DNA of 64,000 nt from Oenococcus kitaharae (GTDB lineage Bacteria; Bacillota; Bacilli; Lactobacillales; Lactobacillaceae). The stretch is from positions 62,001 through 126,000 of the forward strand of contig NZ_JANJQP010000003.1 in NCBI RefSeq assembly GCF_025758695.1, in the 5' to 3' direction. The notes under the pieces were generated by a model, which was given only the letters and a program-made list of their open reading frames with translations, had not been told where the DNA came from and ran no database searches. Below, in pieces: positions 39,272-60,925 of this stretch. Both the position numbers and the translations under genes were made by a program. Every line of letters begins with the position of its first letter. Within the stretch, counting starts at the first letter, position 1.

Positions 39272-39359
39272 TCGCTGTTGGACTGTTTTAATTGTGTTTT
39301 TCGATTAATGAGCGTTTAAAGATGCTGCAGGGGCGAGTTTTTCCTCTAAAATAGACTTG

Positions 39360-39593
39360 ATGAAAAGATCCCGACAGCAAGAAATTAGAAAACAAATCCG
39401 TAAAGAGCAGCGCAAGCCCAGTCCAGAGGAAGTCATCGAGGCCCGTTCACGAATTGCGCGTCAGCGGATTGATGACGAAAACGCGAAAAATGGTAAAAAG
39501 AGCCGTTTTGATTATTTGACGATTACGATGGCCGTCCTAATGGCTGCGATCACTTTGATCGGTGTTGTGATCGTCCTTTTGGATATAATGTAA
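39360..39593 (+). CDS. Small single-pass membrane protein, paralogue of the protein at 58088
   Basis: The 77-residue protein has a strongly basic N-terminal half (RQQEIRKQIRKEQRK…) and one C-terminal membrane segment. Its stretch KKSRFDYLTITMAVLMAA is nearly identical to the protein encoded at 58088. The start ATG at 39360 has no ribosome site; TAAAAT at 39347-39352 could be a -10 placing transcription start at or next to the ATG, so it may be leaderless. Function unknown. A fragment of a further member lies at 51932. Confidence 0.7.
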   Translation: MKRSRQQEIRKQIRKEQRKPSPEEVIEARSRIARQRIDDENAKNGKKSRFDYLTITMAVLMAAITLIGVVIVLLDIM

Positions 39594-39615: not shown

Positions 39616-39644
39616 TAGACAAAGTATTTTTATCCTGCTATCAT
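39616..39644 (+). promoter_or_regulatory. Promoter of the pyr operon
   Basis: TAGACA (39616-39621) and TATCAT (39639-39644) are separated by 17 bases. Transcription would start near 39651, about 43 bases before the leader ORF. Confidence 0.7.
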
Positions 39645-39693
39645 ATTTGGCAATGTGAATTTTTAAAAGTCACAGGCGAAGGAGCAGGAGCAG

Positions 39694-39825
39694 ATGAACA
39701 GTGTTCACGCACAATTCTATGCAAAGATCAGTGTTTGCAGGCTCACTTTTGCTTTTCATGTTTCTGTTGATAATTTAATTTTTAATCATTATTCAGTGAT
39801 TAATACCTCAATTATTTCTAATTGA
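39694..39825 (+). CDS. pyrL: pyr leader peptide, 43 codons, probable attenuation peptide
   Basis: An ATG preceded by GGAGCAGGAGCAG opens a 43-codon frame (MNSVHAQFYAKISVCRLTF… to …VINTSIISN). Its TGA lies in the 3' arm of the terminator at 39802-39837. The middle of the frame is T-rich (39746-39786). This is the arrangement of the E. coli pyrBI leader: low UTP slows RNA polymerase in the U-rich stretch, the ribosome catches up and prevents the terminator from folding. The peptide itself need not have a function. Length, ribosome site and stop position are seen directly; the mechanism is inferred. Confidence 0.75.
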   Translation: MNSVHAQFYAKISVCRLTFAFHVSVDNLIFNHYSVINTSIISN

Positions 39826-39837
39826 GGTATTTTTTTT
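39802..39837 (+). terminator. pyr attenuator terminator
   Basis: AATACCTCAATTA and TAATTGAGGTATT form a perfect 13-bp stem with loop TTTC, followed by an eight-T run. It ends 20 bases before the pyrB start codon. A preceding 6-bp hairpin, TAATCA / TGATTA (39783-39802), could act as a pause signal. Confidence 0.88.
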
Positions 39838-39857
39838 GCCAAAATTCGGAGGAGAAC

Positions 39858-40781
39858 ATGGCTAATCTTTTTGTAAACATCAATGATTTATCCAATCAGG
39901 ATCTCTTAGCGATGATCCATCAGGCTTTGTTATTCAAGCACGGCGACTTAATTCCCGCGGCCGAAAAACGAGTCGTGGCTAATATTTTTTTTGAAAACTC
40001 GACCCGCACAGCCAGCAGCTTTCAAATGGCAGAAATCAAATTAGGTTTTCCACGAATTGTGATTGACCCTAGCCGTTCTTCGGCAGCAAAAGGCGAAAGC
40101 CTTTCAGATACTTTAAAGACTTTAAAAGCGATTGGCGTCGGCATTGTCGTGATCAGGCATAGTCTGCGCGGCTGGTATGAACCTTTTTACGAATCGGCTG
40201 GTAAAACACTGCCCAAGCTTGTGAATGCTGGTGATGGCAACGGTCAGCACCCATCGCAGAGTCTGCTTGATTTAATGACGATCAGCGAACATTTCGGACG
40301 TTTCGCCGGCTTGAAGATTCGAATTATCGGTGATATTTATCACTCTCGTGTCGCTCGCTCCAATGCCGAAATTTTAAAGCGGCTCGGTGCTGAGGTCACT
40401 TTTTCCGGCCCGCGTGATTGGTGTGATGTGTCATTAACACAATACGGACAGTACGTCGATTTGGACGATGGGCTTGGACAACAGGATGTTGTGATGCTGT
40501 TGCGTGTCCAGCACGAGCGTCTGTCCGCTGATGAGAATTCGACTTTTACGCCGGCAGCTTATCATGTGCAGTTCGGCCTCACACAGGCACGTTATGACTG
40601 TTTGAAAAACGATGCGATTATTATGCATCCGGCACCAGTCAATCGCGGCGTGGAAATCGATAGCGATTTGGTCGAGGCACCTAAGTCACGCATTTTCCAG
40701 CAGATGGCAAACGGTGTTTTCGCCCGCATGGCCATCCTCAATTACTTGAATAGCCCATTAACGACAAGGGAGCTGGTCTAA
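39858..40781 (+). CDS. pyrB: Aspartate carbamoyltransferase catalytic subunit
   Basis: The enzyme (307 residues) has the carbamoyl-phosphate-binding FFENSTRTASSF motif (about residue 48) and the GDGNGQHPSQSLLDLMTI motif (about 127). It joins carbamoyl phosphate and aspartate, the committed step of UMP synthesis. CGGAGGAG precedes the ATG at 39858; an upstream TTG at 39822 lies inside the terminator and is rejected. No regulatory subunit gene (pyrI) is present. It is the first structural gene of the pyr operon, immediately behind the attenuator. Confidence 0.95.
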   Translation: MANLFVNINDLSNQDLLAMIHQALLFKHGDLIPAAEKRVVANIFFENSTRTASSFQMAEIKLGFPRIVIDPSRSSAAKGESLSDTLKTLKAIGVGIVVIRHSLRGWYEPFYESAGKTLPKLVNAGDGNGQHPSQSLLDLMTISEHFGRFAGLKIRIIGDIYHSRVARSNAEILKRLGAEVTFSGPRDWCDVSLTQYGQYVDLDDGLGQQDVVMLLRVQHERLSADENSTFTPAAYHVQFGLTQARYDCLKNDAIIMHPAPVNRGVEIDSDLVEAPKSRIFQQMANGVFARMAILNYLNSPLTTRELV

Positions 40782-40782
40782 T

Positions 40783-42078
40783 ATGCCGACGATTTTAATC
40801 AAAAACGCGCGTGTGCTGGCTGGCGAAAATCAGCTGATCAAACAGGATGTGCTGATCGAAAATACTTATATCAAACAGGTCGCAGATATGATTACCGTTT
40901 CCGCTGATCAAGTGATAGATGCTGAAAATGCTTTGTTGCTGCCGGGACTGATTGATGTGCATGTGCATTTTAGAGAACCTGGTTTTTCTGAAAAAGAAAC
41001 AGTCGCCAGCGGCTCGAAAGCAGCCGCGAGAGGCGGTTTTACAACGGTTTTAGCCATGCCGAATGTTAATCCAGTCGTTGATAATCCTGATGTTTTGCGC
41101 CAAATGCTGGCTTTAAACCAGCGTGACGGGATTGCGAAAATCCATCAGTATGCGGCCATCTCCGCTGGACTGGATTCAGATCATGTGGATGATTTAGATG
41201 CTTTAGCCCAAGCTGGCGCCGTCGCCTTTACAAATGACGGTAAGGGAGTGCAGACGGCCGATACAATGTATGAAGCGATGAAAGCTGCGGCTCGGTTGGG
41301 TAAAGTGCTTGTGGCGCATGTCGAAGACGATTCTCTGATTCACGGCGGTGTCATGAACGCTGGTCCAGCAGCCGATGCTTTAGGATTGACGGGTGCTAAT
41401 AAGTTAAGCGAGAGTTCTCAGTTGGCGCGTGATCTTGTGATTGCTCAGGCGACTGGCGTGCGTTATCACGTGGCGCATGTCTCGACAGCTGAGAGTGTCG
41501 CATTGATTCGGATTGCAAAAAAAGAAGGTGTTCATGTGACGGCCGAAGTTTCCCCACATCATCTGCTTTTAGACGACGGCATGATCACAAAAGACGATGC
41601 CATGATGAAAATGAATCCACCGCTGCGTTCGCCACATGATAGGGCTGCTTTGATTGCTGGCTTGTTAGACGGCACAATCGACATGGTCGCAACAGATCAC
41701 GCACCGCATACGGCTGCCGAAAAAGCACAGGGGATGTTAAAGGCACCGAATGGCGTGACTGGAATTGAGACGAGTTTTCAGCTTTTATACACGCATTTTG
41801 TCAAAAGCGGTGTCATGTCTCTACGGCGTTTATTACAAGTGATGAATCAGGCACCCGCAGCAGCTTTTTCTTTGTCTGATGCGGCTGTGAAAGTGGCAGC
41901 GGGGCAAAAAGCAGATCTGGCTTTGTTTGATATTGATCATCCCCATGTCATTTCTAAAGACGAATTTGCTTCAAAAGCCAGTAACAGCCCCTTTATTGGC
42001 TGGGAAATTTATGGGCAGACACAGGCAACTTGGGTTAACGGCCAGCAGGTGTATGCGGCAGAAAGGAGTCAAGCATGA
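40783..42078 (+). CDS. pyrC: Dihydroorotase
   Basis: The 431-residue amidohydrolase has the metal-binding motif DVHVHFREPG (about residues 57-66), later histidines in VAHVSTAES and EVSPHHL, and the catalytic Asp in MVATDHAPH. This is class I dihydroorotase, which cyclises carbamoyl aspartate to dihydroorotate. It begins 2 bases after pyrB and overlaps carA by 4 bases. Confidence 0.95.
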   Translation: MPTILIKNARVLAGENQLIKQDVLIENTYIKQVADMITVSADQVIDAENALLLPGLIDVHVHFREPGFSEKETVASGSKAAARGGFTTVLAMPNVNPVVDNPDVLRQMLALNQRDGIAKIHQYAAISAGLDSDHVDDLDALAQAGAVAFTNDGKGVQTADTMYEAMKAAARLGKVLVAHVEDDSLIHGGVMNAGPAADALGLTGANKLSESSQLARDLVIAQATGVRYHVAHVSTAESVALIRIAKKEGVHVTAEVSPHHLLLDDGMITKDDAMMKMNPPLRSPHDRAALIAGLLDGTIDMVATDHAPHTAAEKAQGMLKAPNGVTGIETSFQLLYTHFVKSGVMSLRRLLQVMNQAPAAAFSLSDAAVKVAAGQKADLALFDIDHPHVISKDEFASKASNSPFIGWEIYGQTQATWVNGQQVYAAERSQA

Positions 42079-43166
42079 CAAAACGCTATTTAGTTTTGGA
42101 AAACGGATCAATTTATGAGGGCGAAGCCTTTGGTGCGAGTGGCACTTCAGTCGGCGAATTGGTTTTCAATACGGGCATGACCGGCTATCAGGAAACGATC
42201 ACGGATTTGTCTTATGCCAATCAGATGATTGTCTTTACTTATCCTTTGATCGGTAATTATGGCGTTAACCGTGACGATTCAGAAAGCCTGCGCCCGGCTG
42301 CTGCAGCGATTGTTGTGCATGAAATTGCCCGCCGTCCCAGTAATTGGCGCATGCAGATTTCGCTGACCGAATGGGCTGAAAAGATGCGTCTGCCGGGAAT
42401 TACGGGTGTCGATACGCGAGCGCTCACAAGAGAATTACGTGACCAGGGGGTGATGAAAGCGGCTTTAGTCGATCAAGTAACGCCTGACACGGTGACATGG
42501 CTGCGTGGGCAAGCACTGCCGACAGATCAGGTTCAACAGGTGACTGTTCGCAGCGGTTACCAAAATCCGAATGTTGGGGTCACGATTGCACTGATTGATT
42601 TCGGTTTGAAAAATTCCATTCTGCGTTCTCTAGCAGCGCGGCAGTGCAATGTGGTTGTTTTCCCGGCCGATGTTGATGCTATGACAGTACTAGAAGTGGA
42701 TCCTGACGGTATTATGCTGTCAAACGGCCCTGGTGATCCGCAATCGGTCAGTTACGCCATTCCAACCATTCAGGCCTTGCAAAAAGTGAAACCACTTTTC
42801 GGTATTTGCCTAGGACACCAATTGTTTGCCATGGCTAACGGCGCAAAAACTTTCAAAATGAAATTCGGCCATCGCGGTTTTAACCATGCTGTGCGATCAA
42901 TCGACAGCCCGAGACTGGCCTTCACTTCACAGAATCATGGTTATGCAGTTGATGAGGCCTCGCTGGCTGGAACTGACTTGATCGTGACTTACCGTGAAGT
43001 CAATGATGGGACTGTGGAAGGGCTGAAGTCGACTGTTTATCCGGCTTTCTCAGTCCAATTCCATCCAGACGCTGCGCCTGGCCCGCATGATGCGGATACG
43101 ATTTTTGATGATTTCTTGCGGCTGATCGCAGCTGACAAAAGGAGGAAAAATGCCCAAACGGTCTGA
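42075..43166 (+). CDS. carA: Carbamoyl-phosphate synthase small (glutaminase) subunit
   Basis: The 363-residue subunit has the N-terminal domain starting [15 protein letters not shown] and a class I glutamine amidotransferase domain with nucleophile Cys in [11 protein letters not shown] and the [10 protein letters not shown] motif. It supplies ammonia to CarB. AAGGAG precedes the ATG, and its end overlaps carB by 17 bases. Being inside the pyr operon it is the pyrimidine-linked enzyme (pyrAA in Bacillus terms); whether a separate arginine-linked copy exists cannot be seen. Confidence 0.95.
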
Positions 43167-46100
43167 TATTCATAAAATACTGGTCATCGGTTCCGGACCG
43201 ATTGTGATTGGCCAAGCGGCTGAATTTGATTATTCGGGCACGCAAGCCAGTCTGTCTTTGCGTGAAGAAGGTTATTCCGTGGTACTGGTCAATTCAAATC
43301 CGGCCACGATTATGACTGATGCTGAAACGGCGGACAAGGTTTATATTGAGCCCCTGACACTGGAATTTGTCGAAAACGTCTTGAGAAAGGAACGACCGGA
43401 TGCCATTTTAGCGACACTTGGCGGTCAGACTGGCTTGAATCTGGCTAAAGATTTATCCGAAGATGGTATCTTAGACGAATTGCATATCGAATTGCTGGGC
43501 ACGAAATTGTCAGCGATTGAGCAGGCTGAAGACCGAGAAAAGTTCAAGGAACTCATGGAAGAACTGCATGAGCCGATTCCAAAATCACAGACAGCGACGA
43601 CATTGACTGAAGCTTTGAATTTTGCTGAACGCCAGGGTTATCCGGTCATTGTCCGCCCGGCTTATACCTTGGGTGGTACTGGCGGCGGCATCGCTAACAA
43701 TGAAATGGAACTTCGCCAGATTGCTGAAAATGGGCTGGAATTATCGCCAGTGACACAGATCCTCGTTGAAGAATCGATCGCAGGCTATAAAGAAATCGAA
43801 TTCGAAGTGATGCGCGATGCTAATGATAATGCCTTGGCCGTGGCTTCCATGGAAAACCTGGATCCCGTCGGCATTCATACAGGTGACTCGATTGTCCTAG
43901 CGCCAGTGCAGACTTTGTCGGACAAAGAATATCAAATGCTGCGTGATGCGTCATTGAAAATTATTAGAGCCTTGAAGATTCAGGGTGGTGCCAACGTCCA
44001 GCTGGCTTTGAACCCGAATAGTTTTGCATACGATGTGATCGAAGTGAACCCGCGTGTTTCTAGGTCATCAGCTCTGGCCTCTAAAGCCACGGGTGATCCG
44101 ATCGCAAAAATGGCTGCCAAGATTGCAGTTGGCCTGACCTTAGATGAAATTATCAATCCTGTCACCGGTAGCAGCAAAGCGGCTTTTGAGCCGGCCTTGG
44201 ATTATGTCGTGGTGAAAATTCCGCGCTGGCCTTTTGACAAATTCACGACCGCTGATCGCCGTTTGGGTACACAGATGAAAGCCACTGGTGAAGTCATGGC
44301 TATCGGCCGCAATATTGAAATGGCTTTGATGAAGGCTGTTCGTTCTTTGGAGATCGGTGCTTTAGCTTTAGATGACGTGCGTTTTCCAGAATGGCCGACG
44401 GAAAAACTATTGGATGCTCTCTGGCCGGCACGCGATGATCGCCTATTCATGATTGCCGACTTATTGCGCCGCGGTGTGAGTGCCGAAGCAATTCATGAAA
44501 AAAGCGGTATTGATTATTTCTTCTTGGACAAAATTGCGCATCTAGTCGAGATCGAAGAAGCTTTAAAACAGCATCCTTTCGACCAGGATTATTTGAAAAT
44601 GGCTAAGGAAAACGGTTTTCCGGACGCCGCCATCGCGCGTTACTGGCACAGCGACGAACAAAAAATCCGTACTTTGCGAGAACAGCAGCATTTATTGCCT
44701 ACTTATAAAATGGTCGATACCGCAGCCGGCGAGTTCGTTTCTAAAACGCCTTACTATTATTCGACCTATGAACGCGAAAACGAATCCAAATCTATCGGGC
44801 CTAAAAGCGTACTTGTCTTGGGTTCCGGGCCGATTCGTATCGGACAAGGCGTGGAATTTGATTACGCGACGGTTCATTCTGTCAAAGCGATTCAAAAAGC
44901 CGGCTACAAAGCAATTGTCATCAACTCAAATCCTGAGACCGTGTCGACTGATTTTTCCATCTCCGACAAGTTGTATTTTGAACCGATCACATTAGAAGAT
45001 GTCTTGAATATTGTGGATCTGGAAAAACCGCTCGGTGTGATTGTCCAATTCGGCGGCCAGACCGCGATTAATTTAGCAGCACCTTTGCAGGCAGCTGGCG
45101 TTAGGATTTTAGGGACAGCTGTTTCCGATATTAATCGTGCTGAAGACCGTGAGGATTTTGGCGAGGTTATTCAACAATTACAGTTGCCTCAGCCGGTTGG
45201 GAAAACGGCCAGTTCAGTTGCGGAAGCCTTGACTGCTGCTAAACAAGTTGGTTATCCGATTTTGATCAGGCCTTCTTATGTTCTAGGCGGACGTGCGATG
45301 GAAATCGTTGCTAACGCCGATGAACTGGCTAAATATATGCATCGTGCCGTGAAAGTTTCCCACGACCATCCGGTGTTGATTGATTCCTATCTGACTGGTA
45401 AAGAAGCTGAAGTCGATGTGATTAGTGACGGCCAGACCGTTGTAATTCCGGGGATTATGGAACACATTGAGCGGGCTGGTGTTCATTCTGGTGATTCCAT
45501 GTCTGTTTATCCGCCGCAATATCTCAGCCAAAATGTCCAAGACCAAATCGTCAAAGCCTCGATTGAAATAGCTAAGTCTCTAAAAACAGTCGGATTGATG
45601 AACGTCCAATTTGTGATTCATGATGAAAAAGCCTATATTATCGAAGCCAATCCGCGCGCGTCACGTACGGTGCCTTTTATCTCCAAAGTGACTCAGATCC
45701 CGCTGGCACAGTTAGCCACGAGTGTGATTTTGGGTGCTTCGTTGAAAAAATTAGGTTTCCATGAAGGCCTGGCAGAAAAAAGTCATCTTGTCCATGTCAA
45801 AGCACCGATTTTCTCATTTTCCAAACTGCCAAAAGTCGACTCGTCACTGGGACCGGAAATGAAGTCGACTGGTGAAGTGATGGGAACTGACCGTACGTTG
45901 TCAAAAGCCCTCTATAAAGCCTTCGTTGCTTCGGGATTTCATCTGCCTAGTCATGGTAATGTGCTCTTCACGATTGCCGACCGCGACAAAAAAGAGGCTT
46001 TGTCCTTGGCGGAACGCTTTAGTCGTCTTGGCTATATGCTGTGGGCAACAGCTGGCACGGCTGCTTATCTGAGAAGCCATCAGCTGCGTGTCAAAGAATT

Positions 46101-46347
46101 GGGTAAAATTTCCGATCAAGCCGATAATCCGGTGGCAGCTATGCGCAGCGGCCAATTGCAGTTAGTCGTCAATACTTTGGAGACAGATGAATTGCTGGAA
46201 CCGGATGGCCGTCAAATTCGCTCGGCCGCGATTGAAAACGCCGTCCCTTTGTTCACGTCGCTGGATACGGTCGCAGCCTTCTTGCAGGTTTTGGAAAGCC
46301 GCTCCTTTGAAGTGGACGCGATCGAAGAAAGGCAGCTGCAGCTATGA
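43150..46347 (+). CDS. carB: Carbamoyl-phosphate synthase large subunit
   Basis: The 1065-residue protein is full length: two homologous ATP-grasp halves (each opening with [20 protein letters not shown] or [20 protein letters not shown]) and a C-terminal MGS-like allosteric domain (from about residue 930). It makes carbamoyl phosphate from bicarbonate, ammonia and two ATP. GGAGGAAAA precedes the ATG. The last four bases overlap pyrF. Confidence 0.96.
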
Positions 46348-47042
46348 CAGGCACGACTGATAAATTATTTATCGCTTTGGATTTCACGGATGGCAGCCAG
46401 GCTTTGGCTTTTTTGAAACCTTTCGAAGATCAGGATATCCGGCCGGCTGTCAAAGTGGGTATGGCCTTGTTTTACGCGACTGGTGCCGATTTTATTCACG
46501 AACTGAGACAAGCTGGCTATCCTGTTTTCCTGGATTTAAAACTTTTCGATATCCCGAATACGGTCGCAGCCAGCATGGCCTCAATTAACAAGATGAATGT
46601 CCAATATCTGACCTTGCATGCTTTGGGCGGTGAAAAAATGCTGGCAGCTGCGGTCCAAGAAAAAGCTGATGGCTTAAAACTGCTGGCGGTGACGCAGTTG
46701 ACTTCCTTCTCGGAAACACAGATGCAGCAGACGCAAATGACGGCAGCCTCTGTCGAACAATCAGTCCAGCATCTGGCTAGGATTGCTGAAAGGGCAGGGA
46801 TGTCCGGCACGATTTCATCGCCATTGGAAGCAGATCTGATCCGACAAGCCACTAAGCCGGGATTTTTGAAAGTCACGCCAGGAATTCGTTTGCCTGATAG
46901 CGGAACAGACGATCAAAGCCGGATTGCCACCCCGGCCAAAGCAAAACAGCTTGGTGCCGATGCCTTGGTAGTCGGGCGTCCAATTATCCAGGCTGCAGGC
47001 CCTGTATCTGTTTATAAAAAAATAATGGAGGATTTTACATGA
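46344..47042 (+). CDS. pyrF: Orotidine 5'-phosphate decarboxylase
   Basis: The 232-residue barrel has the catalytic cluster [13 protein letters not shown] (about residues 57-69) with Asp-x-Lys-x-x-Asp, and the phosphate-binding VTPGIRLP and VVGRPI motifs. It converts OMP to UMP. It overlaps carB and pyrE by 4 bases each (ATGA and CATGA type), so translation is coupled along the operon. Confidence 0.95.
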
Positions 47043-47674
47043 CGCACAACTATTCAAAAGAGGTCGCTGAAGATTTATTGACTATCCAGGCTGTTAAATT
47101 TGTGCCCGAAGATCCTTTCACTTGGGCTTCCGGCATTGTCAGCCCGATTTATACGGATAATCGGCTGACGATCGCGTTTCCAAAAGTACGCGACTTAATC
47201 GCAGCTGGTCTAGCTGAATTGGCCGCTGAGCGCTTTCCCAAAGCTGATATTATCGGCGGCGTGGCAACGGCTGGTATCCCGCATGCGGCTTTGGTTGCTG
47301 ACCGTTTAGCCAAACCGATGATTTACGTCCGCGCCAAGCCTAAAGATCACGGCCGCGGCAAACAGATTGAAGGCGCCGATGTCGCCAACAAAAGTGTCTT
47401 ATTAATCGATGATTTATTCTCGACTGGCGGATCAGTGCTGGGAGCGGGAACGGCTGTTCAAGCTGCTGGGGGCCGCGTTGTCGGCCTGCTGGCGATTTTC
47501 TCCTATGAATTAAAAGCACTTTCGGAGAATTTTGCGGCGGCCGGGCTGGATTATGCTGCTCTGACCAATTACACGCAATTAGCCCAGGCAGCTGTGGCGC
47601 GTGGTGATCTTGACGCATCGCAAATTGAGACTTTAAAAGATTGGCATCAAGATCCAAAACACTGGCGGAAATAG
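47039..47674 (+). CDS. pyrE: Orotate phosphoribosyltransferase
   Basis: The 211-residue enzyme has the PRPP-binding motif VLLIDDLFSTGGSV (about residue 120) and the flexible loop RAKPKDHGRGKQIEG that closes over the active site. It makes OMP from orotate and PRPP. GGAGGATTTTAC precedes the ATG inside the end of pyrF. Confidence 0.95.
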   Translation: MTHNYSKEVAEDLLTIQAVKFVPEDPFTWASGIVSPIYTDNRLTIAFPKVRDLIAAGLAELAAERFPKADIIGGVATAGIPHAALVADRLAKPMIYVRAKPKDHGRGKQIEGADVANKSVLLIDDLFSTGGSVLGAGTAVQAAGGRVVGLLAIFSYELKALSENFAAAGLDYAALTNYTQLAQAAVARGDLDASQIETLKDWHQDPKHWRK

Positions 47675-47686
47675 GAGAGAAAACAC

Positions 47687-48634
47687 ATGAATTATTCAAC
47701 AACAATTGCAAACGAACATTTTGATCATTTACTGTTAAACGCCGGTGGCATTTTTTGTGAGACAGTCGACCAGCTGGAAAAAATTCAGCATGCTCCAGGT
47801 GCGGGTGCTGTTATGACCAAGTCAGCTACGGCTGAAAAACGGGCCGGGAACCCCAACCCACGCTACTTTACATATCCTGATCATCACAACACGATTAATG
47901 CTATGGGCCTTCCCAATTTAGGAATTGATTATTATTTGGACTACGTGCTGCATCACCAGCTGACACTGCCGACGATTCTTTCAGTCGTCGGCCTTTCTGA
48001 AGAGGAAATTCTGGCTAATTTAAAAAAGATTCAAGCTAGCGGCTACGACGGTCTGATTGAATTAAATCTTTCCTGCCCGAACGTGCCAGGTAAGCCGCAG
48101 ATTGCCTATGATTTTGACACGACTGATCATCTGCTGGATCGTATTTACAGCTTTTTTACGGGGCATTTAGGTGTGAAACTGCCGCCATATTTTGACATGG
48201 CGCATTTTGATCGGATCGCAAAAATCCTGAATCAATATCCATTAGCATATGTCAATGCTGTTAACTCAGTCGGAAATGGTCTCGTGATTGACCCTGAGAC
48301 TGATCGTGTTGTTCTCATGGCAAAAGGCGGATTCGGCGGACTGGGTGGTGCTCAGATTAAGGCGACGGCCCTAGCAAATGTCCGCGCACTTCGTCTGCGT
48401 TTGAAGCCGGAAATTAAGATCATCGGGACTGGCGGTGTGACGACCGGGCGCGATGTTTATGACCATCTTTTGTGCGGTGCTGATCTGGTCTCGGTCGGAT
48501 CACAATTGGCCATCGAAGGGCCAAGTATTTTTCAGCGTTTGGAAGACGAATTAGAAGCTATTTTTGCTGAAAAGCATATCGAGAGTTTAGACCAAGTCCG
48601 CGGCAAATTGAAGCGTTTGGACGAAGCAGAATAA
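47687..48634 (+). CDS. pyrD: Dihydroorotate dehydrogenase class 1A (fumarate-dependent)
   Basis: The 315-residue flavoprotein shows class 1A features: TKSATAEKRAGNPNPRYF (FMN and dimer region), NAMGLPNLG, and catalytic Cys in ELNLSCPNVPGKPQIAYDF. No pyrK electron-transfer subunit lies beside it, consistent with class 1A enzymes that use fumarate and work as cytoplasmic homodimers. AGGAGAG precedes the ATG. It comes last among the biosynthetic genes. Confidence 0.93.
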   Translation: MNYSTTIANEHFDHLLLNAGGIFCETVDQLEKIQHAPGAGAVMTKSATAEKRAGNPNPRYFTYPDHHNTINAMGLPNLGIDYYLDYVLHHQLTLPTILSVVGLSEEEILANLKKIQASGYDGLIELNLSCPNVPGKPQIAYDFDTTDHLLDRIYSFFTGHLGVKLPPYFDMAHFDRIAKILNQYPLAYVNAVNSVGNGLVIDPETDRVVLMAKGGFGGLGGAQIKATALANVRALRLRLKPEIKIIGTGGVTTGRDVYDHLLCGADLVSVGSQLAIEGPSIFQRLEDELEAIFAEKHIESLDQVRGKLKRLDEAE

Positions 48635-48654
48635 TAAAAGGGGATAGCAGAGTG

Positions 48655-49914
48655 ATGGAAAAGACAGTTACTTCTAGTGCAAGTGGAAACGTGATTCAAC
48701 CTGAGAAAGTCGGTGCTTATCAAAGACAGACTTTATGGTCATCCGTGATTGGCTATGCCATGGACGGCCTGGATATGATGCTGTTAGCATTTGTCCTGCC
48801 ATTAATTATTGGCGATTTTCATTTAACGACCGCTGCAGCTGGCGGCATTTCAACCATTACGATGTTCGGTGTCGTGATTGGCGGCATTACATTTGGCATA
48901 TTGGCAGATCGTTGCGGCCGCGTGAAAGTTTTTACCTGGACCATTTTAATTTTTTCGCTTTTCACCGGCCTATCAGCGCTGGCACCTTCTGATCAGATTT
49001 TTGTCGGTATGCGTTTTCTGGCCGGACTGGGTCTGGGAGGTGAATTTGGTATCGGTATGACATTGGTTTCAGAAAGCTGGCCAACGAAATTACGCACGAA
49101 AGCTACTTCTTGGGTCGCCCTGGGTTACCAAGGCGGCACATTGTTAGCTACCTTGCTAGCAAGTTATGTGTCTGGCCATTTTGGCTGGCGCGGTGTTTTT
49201 GCGATTGGTATTCTGCCGGCATTGCTGGCTTGGTGGACCCGCCGGAATCTGGAAGAACCTGCTATGTGGGTAGAAAACAGGCGTATGACTCACAAGGGCT
49301 TTCCAATGAAAGCTCTGTTTGCCAACAGAAGGGTTACTTTGACAACGATTGGCTTAATCATTTTAACTTCGGTGCAGAACTTGGGCTATTTTGGCATCAT
49401 GAACTGGATGCCAACCATGTTGGCAACTCAACGCCATGCAACGATTAGTGGGACGATTTTTTGGACCTTGTCGACTTTGAGCGGCATGGTTATCGGTATT
49501 ATCGTCTTTGCTTGGGCAGCTGATAAATTCGGACGCAAACCGGCTTTTATCACTTTCCAGATTTCTGCGGCGATTATTGTTTGGATTTATTTCCAAATCA
49601 GCAGCCCGCTATTGCTTGTAGCATTAGGATCGGTTTTAGGATTTTTCGTGAATGGCATGATGGGCGGCTATGGTGCCTTGCTGTCCGAACATTATCCGAC
49701 AGCCGTACGCTCGACTGCGGAAAACTTGATCTTTAACCTGGGCCGTTTTATCGGCGGCTTTAGCCCGCTCTTCATTGGCCTGCTAGCTTTGCACGGTTCT
49801 CTATCGGCTGCTTTAGGTATGATTTCCGGTATTTATATCTTAGCTGCGTTAGCGATGCTCCTTTTAATTCCCGAAACTAAGGGTGAAGACTTAGAAGCAA
49901 TAGAAGCAGAATAG
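48655..49914 (+). CDS. MFS transporter (aromatic acid:H+ symporter-like)
   Basis: A 419-residue carrier with 12 membrane segments. The MFS loop 2-3 motif reads GILADRCGRVK and an AGLGLGGEFGIGMTL segment is typical of the benzoate/sialate-type symporters (AAHS/SHS). It starts 20 bases after pyrD, with AGGGG upstream of GTG ATG, and belongs to the pyr operon by position. Import of orotate or another pyrimidine precursor is an inference from this context only. The C-terminal tail ETKGEDLEAIEAE has a degenerate counterpart at about 52000-52080. Confidence 0.85.
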   Translation: MEKTVTSSASGNVIQPEKVGAYQRQTLWSSVIGYAMDGLDMMLLAFVLPLIIGDFHLTTAAAGGISTITMFGVVIGGITFGILADRCGRVKVFTWTILIFSLFTGLSALAPSDQIFVGMRFLAGLGLGGEFGIGMTLVSESWPTKLRTKATSWVALGYQGGTLLATLLASYVSGHFGWRGVFAIGILPALLAWWTRRNLEEPAMWVENRRMTHKGFPMKALFANRRVTLTTIGLIILTSVQNLGYFGIMNWMPTMLATQRHATISGTIFWTLSTLSGMVIGIIVFAWAADKFGRKPAFITFQISAAIIVWIYFQISSPLLLVALGSVLGFFVNGMMGGYGALLSEHYPTAVRSTAENLIFNLGRFIGGFSPLFIGLLALHGSLSAALGMISGIYILAALAMLLLIPETKGEDLEAIEAE

Positions 49915-60731: not shown

Positions 60732-60779
60732 ATGAAAATAGTCTTTAAGAACAATTCAGCATGGTGGTGGCTCGGTTAA
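60732..60779 (+). CDS. trpL: trp leader peptide with three tandem Trp codons
   Basis: ATG at 60732 opens a 15-codon frame, MKIVFKNNSAWWWLG, ending in TAA. Three consecutive TGG codons (60762-60770) sit at positions 11-13, close to the stop, as in enterobacterial trpL peptides. No Shine-Dalgarno sequence is obvious and the untranslated lead is very short. Trp-starved ribosomes should stall at the TGG run and expose region 2 of the RNA. Three adjacent TGG codons in a 15-codon leader ahead of a Trp-type importer are unlikely by chance. Confidence 0.85.
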   Translation: MKIVFKNNSAWWWLG

Positions 60780-60838
60780 GCGGGCTGCTTTTGTGTGATT
60801 TGTTCACTGAGGCCCGCCAATAGCGGGCTTTTTCTTTT
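60770..60838 (+). promoter_or_regulatory. Trp-responsive transcription attenuator (1:2, 2:3 and 3:4 pairings)
   Basis: Region 1 GCTCG (60770-60774) pairs with CGGGC (60781-60785). Region 2 GCGGGC (60780-60785) pairs with region 3 GCCCGC (60812-60817), with an inner GTGA/TCAC stem between them, forming an antiterminator. Region 3 pairs with region 4 GCGGGC (60823-60828) around loop CAATA, followed by TTTCTTTT, forming the terminator. 2:3 and 3:4 exclude each other. Region 1 overlaps the last Trp codon, so a ribosome stalled there frees region 2. Confidence 0.82.
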
Positions 60839-60870
60839 GTTCTCGTATCTTTAGATGAACAATTGGCCGG

Positions 60871-60898
60871 ACCCGCTCACTTGCGGGTTTTTCTTTTG
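60871..60898 (+). terminator. Second terminator-like hairpin before trpX
   Basis: ACCCGC and GCGGGT form a 6-bp stem with loop TCACTT and a T-rich tail, 40 bases after the first terminator and 28 bases before trpX. It may tighten shut-off or set a basal level. Confidence 0.65.
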
Positions 60899-60925
60899 CT
60901 GATTGAATGATAAGGGAGAATGAAG

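Follow-up and report, generated by a model that had tools for sequence, protein, structure and literature searches.

In Escherichia coli, the AATTTG start of the pyrBI transcript serves reiterative initiation, and in rph-pyrE translation stops near the foot of the terminator. UTP-sensitive attenuation of both pyrBI and pyrE is described in PMC4491880. The mechanism of PyrR attenuation in Gram-positive bacteria is outlined in PMC10986495, and that of CTP-sensing attenuation of pyrG in PMC4448216. Here, a 64,000-nucleotide stretch of Oenococcus kitaharae DNA (the window) was analyzed, in which a predicted promoter, ribosome site, ORF, U-rich stretch and terminator lie directly 5′ of pyrBC-carAB-pyrFED. 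We consider it probable that transcription is attenuated in this leader in response to pyrimidines and by coupling to translation, as it is at E. coli pyrBI and pyrE. The features of the locus are as follows.

39616-39644, plus strand: predicted sigma-70-type promoter, TAGACA-17-TATCAT (consensus scan, 10/12 matches)
39653-39658, plus strand: ATG TGA start-stop, 8 nt after the -10 box (sequence)
39678-39693, plus strand: Shine-Dalgarno-like region, GAAGGAGCAGGAGCAG (sequence; a condition in the shuffle test)
39694-39825, plus strand: predicted leader ORF of 43 codons, ATG at 39694, MNSVHAQFYAKISVCRLTFAFHVSVDNLIFNHYSVINTSIISN and then the stop, ending inside the terminator
39746-39786, plus strand: U-rich stretch, candidate UTP-dependent pause region (25/41 T, 61%)
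39783-39802, plus strand: A-U-rich hairpin of 8 bp directly adjoining the terminator, a candidate pause hairpin (minimum-energy fold; the role is putative)
39802-39837, plus strand: intrinsic terminator (attenuator), 13-bp stem and T run (sequence, terminator scan)
39858-40781, plus strand: pyrB, for aspartate carbamoyltransferase, with which the operon opens (NCBIfam NF002032, 336.8 bits versus a cut-off of 263)
40783-48634, plus strand: pyrC, carA, carB, pyrF, pyrE and pyrD, predicted to form a single operon with pyrB (NCBIfam, each above at least one cut-off)

The terminator stem (39802-39831) consists of 13 perfect pairs, three of them G-C, with a loop of 4, and the first two T of the eight-T run (39830-39837) take part in the stem pairing. 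The leader ORF has its UGA stop (39823-39825) in the 3′ arm, 32 nt from the pyrB ATG at 39858. An intrinsic terminator thus lies between promoter and pyrB, the U-rich stretch precedes it, and a Shine-Dalgarno-led ORF, whose translation is predicted, runs into it (chance 0.0036). By these anatomical marks the leader would belong to the pyrBI/pyrE type. The initial annotation had called the anatomy pyrBI-like, with a ribosome site, a 43-codon ORF, a U-rich stretch, a perfect 13-bp terminator with eight T and a stop codon in the 3′ arm of the stem; every one of these parts was recovered in place, and the E. coli pyrL that we fetched has 44 codons, with the parts in the same order.

The operon runs pyrB-pyrC-carA-carB-pyrF-pyrE-pyrD (pyrC was identified by TIGR00857 and pyrE by TIGR00336) and is followed by an MFS transporter. 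The transporter (48652-49914), directly after pyrD, has its nearest match in the aromatic acid/H+ symport subfamily, at a score under the cut-off, and could carry orotate or a related compound. On the other side of the leader, a 78-aa ORF at 39357-39593 has a C-terminal segment that is hydrophobic by eye and no match in NCBIfam; a similar ORF stands directly 5′ of the pyr leader in 5/5 pyrB loci of the genus.

Of the two components of a PyrR-regulated leader, a pyrR gene and a PyrR-binding loop, neither was found, the first in the genome and the second in the leader. A PyrR-box reading of the window leader was rejected at 19.6 bits against 54 for Rfam RF00515, the loop motif being absent. No gathering-level match to the PyrR box was obtained at the five pyrB loci of the genus, versus 5 of 12 control loci, and the loop motif was missing from all five genus loci, while 6 of the other 7 controls have it (not L022). 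Altogether 11 of the 12 controls show the box, five by Rfam and six by the loop motif only, nine of the 12 coming from one genus, Secundilactobacillus. In the window genome (G000; 1.754 Mb, 98.5% complete), the best NF003545 score for pyrR was 30.4 bits versus a cut-off of 140. Ten Pribosyltran matches were obtained there; eight were named by NCBIfam (two Hpt, Prs, PurR, Apt, Upp, PyrE and Xpt), and the remaining two are a 515-aa frame, the size of PurF, and one of 235 aa that falls short of the Pfam cut-off. The initial annotation, which had seen neither a PyrR box nor pyrR, was therefore borne out, for the box in the leader and for pyrR in the genome and in all seven genomes of the genus.

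Within the family, a match to the PyrR model was counted in 382 of 397 sampled genomes, by eye from the table and at a threshold of our own (E≤1e-20); 149 genomes pass the curated cut-off, at which many clear PyrR are lost as well. The 15 genomes without such a match comprise every one of the 7 from the window's genus (two at 65-68% completeness) and 8 from elsewhere in the family, of which three are 85-87% complete. The presence of pyrB was counted in the genus and in nine further genomes, namely these 8 and one with weak PyrR. Within the genus it was found in 5/7 genomes; G006 gave no match, and a weak PyrB match in G005 was discarded as an ornithine carbamoyltransferase. PyrB matches were also seen in 4 of the nine further genomes, all 4 being among the 8 without a PyrR match. 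The five matching proteins were ornithine or putrescine carbamoyltransferases by NCBIfam, and therefore the window's genus is the only sampled PyrR-less lineage where pyrB was found.

The pyrB leaders of the genus take two forms. The long leader of a close relative (G001) is almost identical to that of the window, differing at 39642 (TATGAT in the -10 box), 39745 and 39801 (T>C, which removes one pair of the 39783-39802 hairpin). The two genomes show 99 differences in 3,921 bp, with one synonymous and one non-synonymous change in the leader ORF. Because the 43-codon frame is known in two closely related genomes only, its conservation carries no weight. The other three genomes with pyrB (G002, G003 and G004) have a different, short leader, whose plan is shared with the leaders of the uracil permease: an ATG or GTG, placed precisely 8 nt past the -10 hexamer, opens an ORF that ends at or in an intrinsic terminator. 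This plan was found in 7/7 permease leaders (6 distinct ORFs) and in the three short pyrB leaders (2 distinct). The ORF-into-terminator leader noted by the initial annotation at one locus thus recurs at the uracil permease of all seven genomes and at pyrB of three sister genomes, which strengthens its reading.

The permease ORFs have 12-16 codons and the short pyrB ORFs 16 or 24, when counting starts at the ATG at offset 8; the short pyrB leaders carry ATG at offsets 5 and 8, in frame (ATGATG), and either could be used. The stops fall at the terminator foot or in the 5′ arm, the loop or the 3′ arm, with hairpin positions read by eye. The peptides vary (VQKNRKQVIQML, VRNFRKQSFGFF, VRNFRKQIINIF, VQKIRKQVSKTL, MLGKLKPNTKNAI, MLRQINTNKKRNRRRR, MLKQRKQSVLFFGNNF, MLAHCKQTININSFRKTTSKSSLI). 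Because they differ, it appears that frame and geometry are kept, not sequence. The short leaders look like leaderless mRNAs because they have no room for a ribosome site, their start sites having been deduced solely from the -10 box. For Lactococcus cremoris, which belongs to the same order, a leaderless share of about 13% of mRNAs is given (PMC10986495). The fixed 8-nt offset could reflect start-site choice and not the start codon; a spacing of 8 bp is mentioned for reiterative initiation in PMC6245113. Reiterative initiation at pyrB or the permease was itself dismissed, as no homopolymer was seen by eye at the expected start. The U-rich stretch is inconstant, being present in the permease leaders of G002 and G004 and absent from those of G000 and G003. 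An alignment of the permease leaders (L119-L123, L125 and L155) also shows, beyond the frame, an RTGC where the 5′ end is expected and a stretch of AAA, both conserved in 7/7. In the window's pyrB leader, the ATG TGA at 39653-39658 has the same position as the start codon of the short leaders; it may be due to chance, or is possibly the relic of a leaderless leader ORF in the window species.

In shuffles, a frame at offset 8 had a probability of 0.0014-0.0147 in each of the 8 distinct short leaders, and of 0.015-0.099 when any offset from 5 to 11 was allowed; the leaders are related by descent and neither set of values is independent. As background, 264 kb of the window genome contained 4 such ORFs among 42 promoter-terminator pairs, and the three that were inspected resemble, by eye, ordinary gene ends. 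The corresponding counts were 8/96 in G014, a relative that bears PyrR, and 1/12 in E. coli, and nowhere in this background was an ORF at offset 8. By the same scan, 8 of 12 genus loci had one at offset 8; the two long pyrB leaders gave nothing, and L119 and L120 were lost at the terminator filter.

For the window leader, 20,000 dinucleotide shuffles were made with the terminator held fixed. An ATG ORF of at least 40 codons, led by a Shine-Dalgarno sequence and running into the terminator, arose in 0.36% of them; the value rose to 2.1% with a threshold of at least 15 codons, and to 6.8% for at least 40 codons when no Shine-Dalgarno sequence was required. A T content of 61% or more occurs in 6e-5 of the plus-strand 41-mers of the window, a post hoc figure as the stretch had been chosen by the initial annotation. 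Taken alone, the promoter scan (3 promoter-like sites versus 1.6 expected) and the terminator scan (1 found versus 0.5 expected) were not significant. TTNTTT is a pause motif associated with NusG. It is absent from the window leader 5′ of the terminator loop, and among the 11 leaders examined, three have it 5′ of the terminator (pyrB of G003; permease of G002 and G004). The fold of the whole leader gave z=-4.7 and that of 39650-39790 alone z=-0.12, indicating that the excess structure lies in the end hairpins. Sequestration of the Shine-Dalgarno region by the U-rich stretch was also considered and rejected: the fold exists, and at z=-0.12 it is no better than in shuffles.

Given that ribosome-dependent attenuation presupposes a ribosome close to the polymerase, we used the distance from stop codon to terminator as a proxy for runaway transcription (PMC7858274), counting terminators within 120 nt with our own ORF and terminator finder on small samples. 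Of the genes with such a terminator, 25/48 had it 12 nt or less from the stop in the window genome (264 kb). In 200 kb each of the PyrR-bearing relative G014 and of E. coli, the counts were 18/38 and 4/17. Distances in the window genome tend to be shorter than those of E. coli (p=0.051; window genome versus G014, p=0.83; G014 versus E. coli, p=0.14), so the proxy points toward uncoupling. The initial annotation had suggested a lineage relying on transcription-translation coupling. Because the distances resemble those of a relative that has PyrR, the lineage does not appear to be specially coupled, and this suggestion was not upheld. A review (PMC7858274) cites Johnson et al. 2020 for Bacillus subtilis, in which the polymerase outruns ribosomes and terminators lie few nt past stops; even there, a local pause can give the ribosome time, as in the tlrB leader (PMC12288461). 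Elsewhere in the window (60732-60900), a trp-type attenuator precedes a TrpX ABC-transporter operon. Its 15-codon ORF (MKIVFKNNSAWWWLG), at 60732, has no obvious ribosome site, and by eye the segments GCGGGC, GCCCGC and GCGGGC could form a 2:3 antiterminator or a 3:4 terminator, after which a second terminator follows. This leader suggests that ribosome-dependent attenuation is in use in this genome.

Several other explanations of the pyrB leader were weighed. Its ORF might be a chance frame, with a terminator that merely lowers basal expression and with control at the promoter or absent. Such a frame is not rare in an AT-rich leader when no Shine-Dalgarno sequence is asked for (the 6.8% above), and so close a relative as G001 cannot reveal selection. 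However, chance falls to 0.36% with the Shine-Dalgarno sequence, and the same logic is found in differing leaders at the permease and at pyrB of the sister genomes, which makes this explanation quite improbable. That the ORF senses an amino acid, in the manner of trp, is brought to mind by the trp-type leader in the same window and by the Arg-Lys-Gln or Lys-Gln common to many of the short leader peptides. Yet the 43-codon ORF has no run of a single codon as trp-type leaders do, the short leaders have no alternative hairpins, and a ribosome stalled at Gln would, judging from the geometry, be too far from the terminator; we regard this explanation as scarcely credible.

On the other hand, the leader RNA or a factor bound to it could make the choice. 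For the former, an alternative fold, either a riboswitch or an antiterminator, would respond to a pyrimidine. Each leader was folded to just before the 3′ arm of its terminator, a procedure that replaced an earlier test of upstream complementarity to the 5′ arm, in which the six PyrR positive controls had failed too (P 0.20-0.79). Pairing of the 5′ arm was 0.70-0.97 in six PyrR control leaders (z -0.92 to -3.08), 0.24-0.40 in the 8 distinct short leaders (z -0.20 to 1.66) and 0.08 in E. coli pyrBI. No antiterminator was detected by this test in the 8 distinct short leaders, and with such low pairing and no structure beyond chance, an RNA-only switch is unlikely for them. In the window leader a weak 7-bp A-U helix (GAUAAUU:AAUUAUU) can compete for part of the 5′ arm, with a pairing of 0.52 and z=-1.69. 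Against it stand the z of -0.12 for 39650-39790 and the Rfam searches, which gave no gathering-level match in the window, at the five genus pyrB loci or at ten permease and pyrG loci; for the window leader there were sub-threshold matches only, the best being ncr1575 (27.4 of 60 bits, E=0.04). A switch of RNA alone is thus very doubtful. Unlikely as well, if less remote, is that some unlisted protein or small RNA took the place of PyrR and would bind the leader and govern its terminator, leaving the ORFs incidental: the RTGC and AAA stretch near the expected 5′ end of the permease leaders might serve as a binding site, and a regulator absent from Rfam would have escaped the searches. But the window and short leaders share, by eye, only a terminator and the position of an ATG, a start codon with an open frame recurs in 8/8 distinct short leaders, and these lack an antiterminator.

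In the translation-coupled attenuator that we favor, the polymerase would leave the promoter and a ribosome would initiate on the 43-codon leader ORF. At low UTP the polymerase would be slow in the U-rich stretch before the terminator, and the ribosome would catch up and cover the 5′ arm of the hairpin, so that the polymerase enters pyrB. With ample UTP the polymerase would run ahead, the 13-bp hairpin would form and transcription would terminate. The sequence of the leader peptide would be irrelevant, with frame and length being what counts. Leaderless translation, UTP-dependent pausing and blocking of the hairpin by the ribosome are all parts that we infer. For the genus, the model would have PyrR lost and leader-ORF attenuators in its place, in two forms. 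At pyrB, the window species and its near relative have a long ORF led by a Shine-Dalgarno sequence, and the three sister genomes have a short ORF that appears to be leaderless; this second form also stands at the uracil permease in all seven genomes.

The larger result is this genus-wide set, in which PyrR appears to have been lost, pyrB and the uracil permease stand behind ORF-into-terminator leaders and pyrG has a leader like the CTP-sensing one. We tentatively propose, at a little short of an even chance, that a Gram-positive genus, once PyrR was lost, came to control its pyrimidine regulon anew through ribosome-coupled attenuators. One form of these would be leaderless, with the ribosome starting at the extreme 5′ end of the transcript and an ORF of 12-24 codons leading it onto the terminator, and all this would work through local pausing although the terminators of the genome seem suited to uncoupled transcription. 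PyrR is near-universal in the family (by the threshold used above). Its loss in a genus that came to the enterobacterial logic would be a natural instance of regulatory replacement, by a mechanism for which no regulatory protein is required. Where a genome has an uncoupled signature, leader-ORF attenuators predict a local, pause-dependent coupling, which bears on how far transcription-translation coupling extends outside proteobacteria. Moreover, the leaderless form is small enough for testing by reporter fusions. Among the matches listed in a literature search, seen as titles and starts of abstracts and including few subscription papers, there was no PyrR-independent pyr leader in Oenococcus and no report of a leaderless-ORF attenuator.

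Compared with known systems, the leader shares with Gram-positive PyrR attenuation a terminator in the pyr leader, whereas the genus lacks PyrR, the PyrR box and an antiterminator of the PyrR kind. The pyrG leader of the genus resembles the CTP-sensing reiterative attenuator of B. subtilis pyrG, with a GGGCGCT start and a C/U-rich terminator arm in 7/7 genomes (L108-L114; L109 is G000:C4 before 42226). Unlike it, the pyrB and permease leaders have no G run, pyrG being a separate gene. Most permease leaders stop near the terminator foot, as in E. coli pyrE with its translated rph upstream, but their ORFs have only 12-16 codons and are apparently leaderless. In contrast to E. coli pyrBI, the window leader has no counterpart of AATTTG at its expected start, and its ORF ends within the 3′ arm with 32 nt left before pyrB, whereas pyrL passes the terminator and ends 3 nt before the gene. 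The likeness to pyrBI and pyrL is in the order of parts: a promoter, a Shine-Dalgarno sequence, an ORF (44 codons in E. coli, 43 in the window) leading into a terminator before pyrB, and a U-rich stretch.
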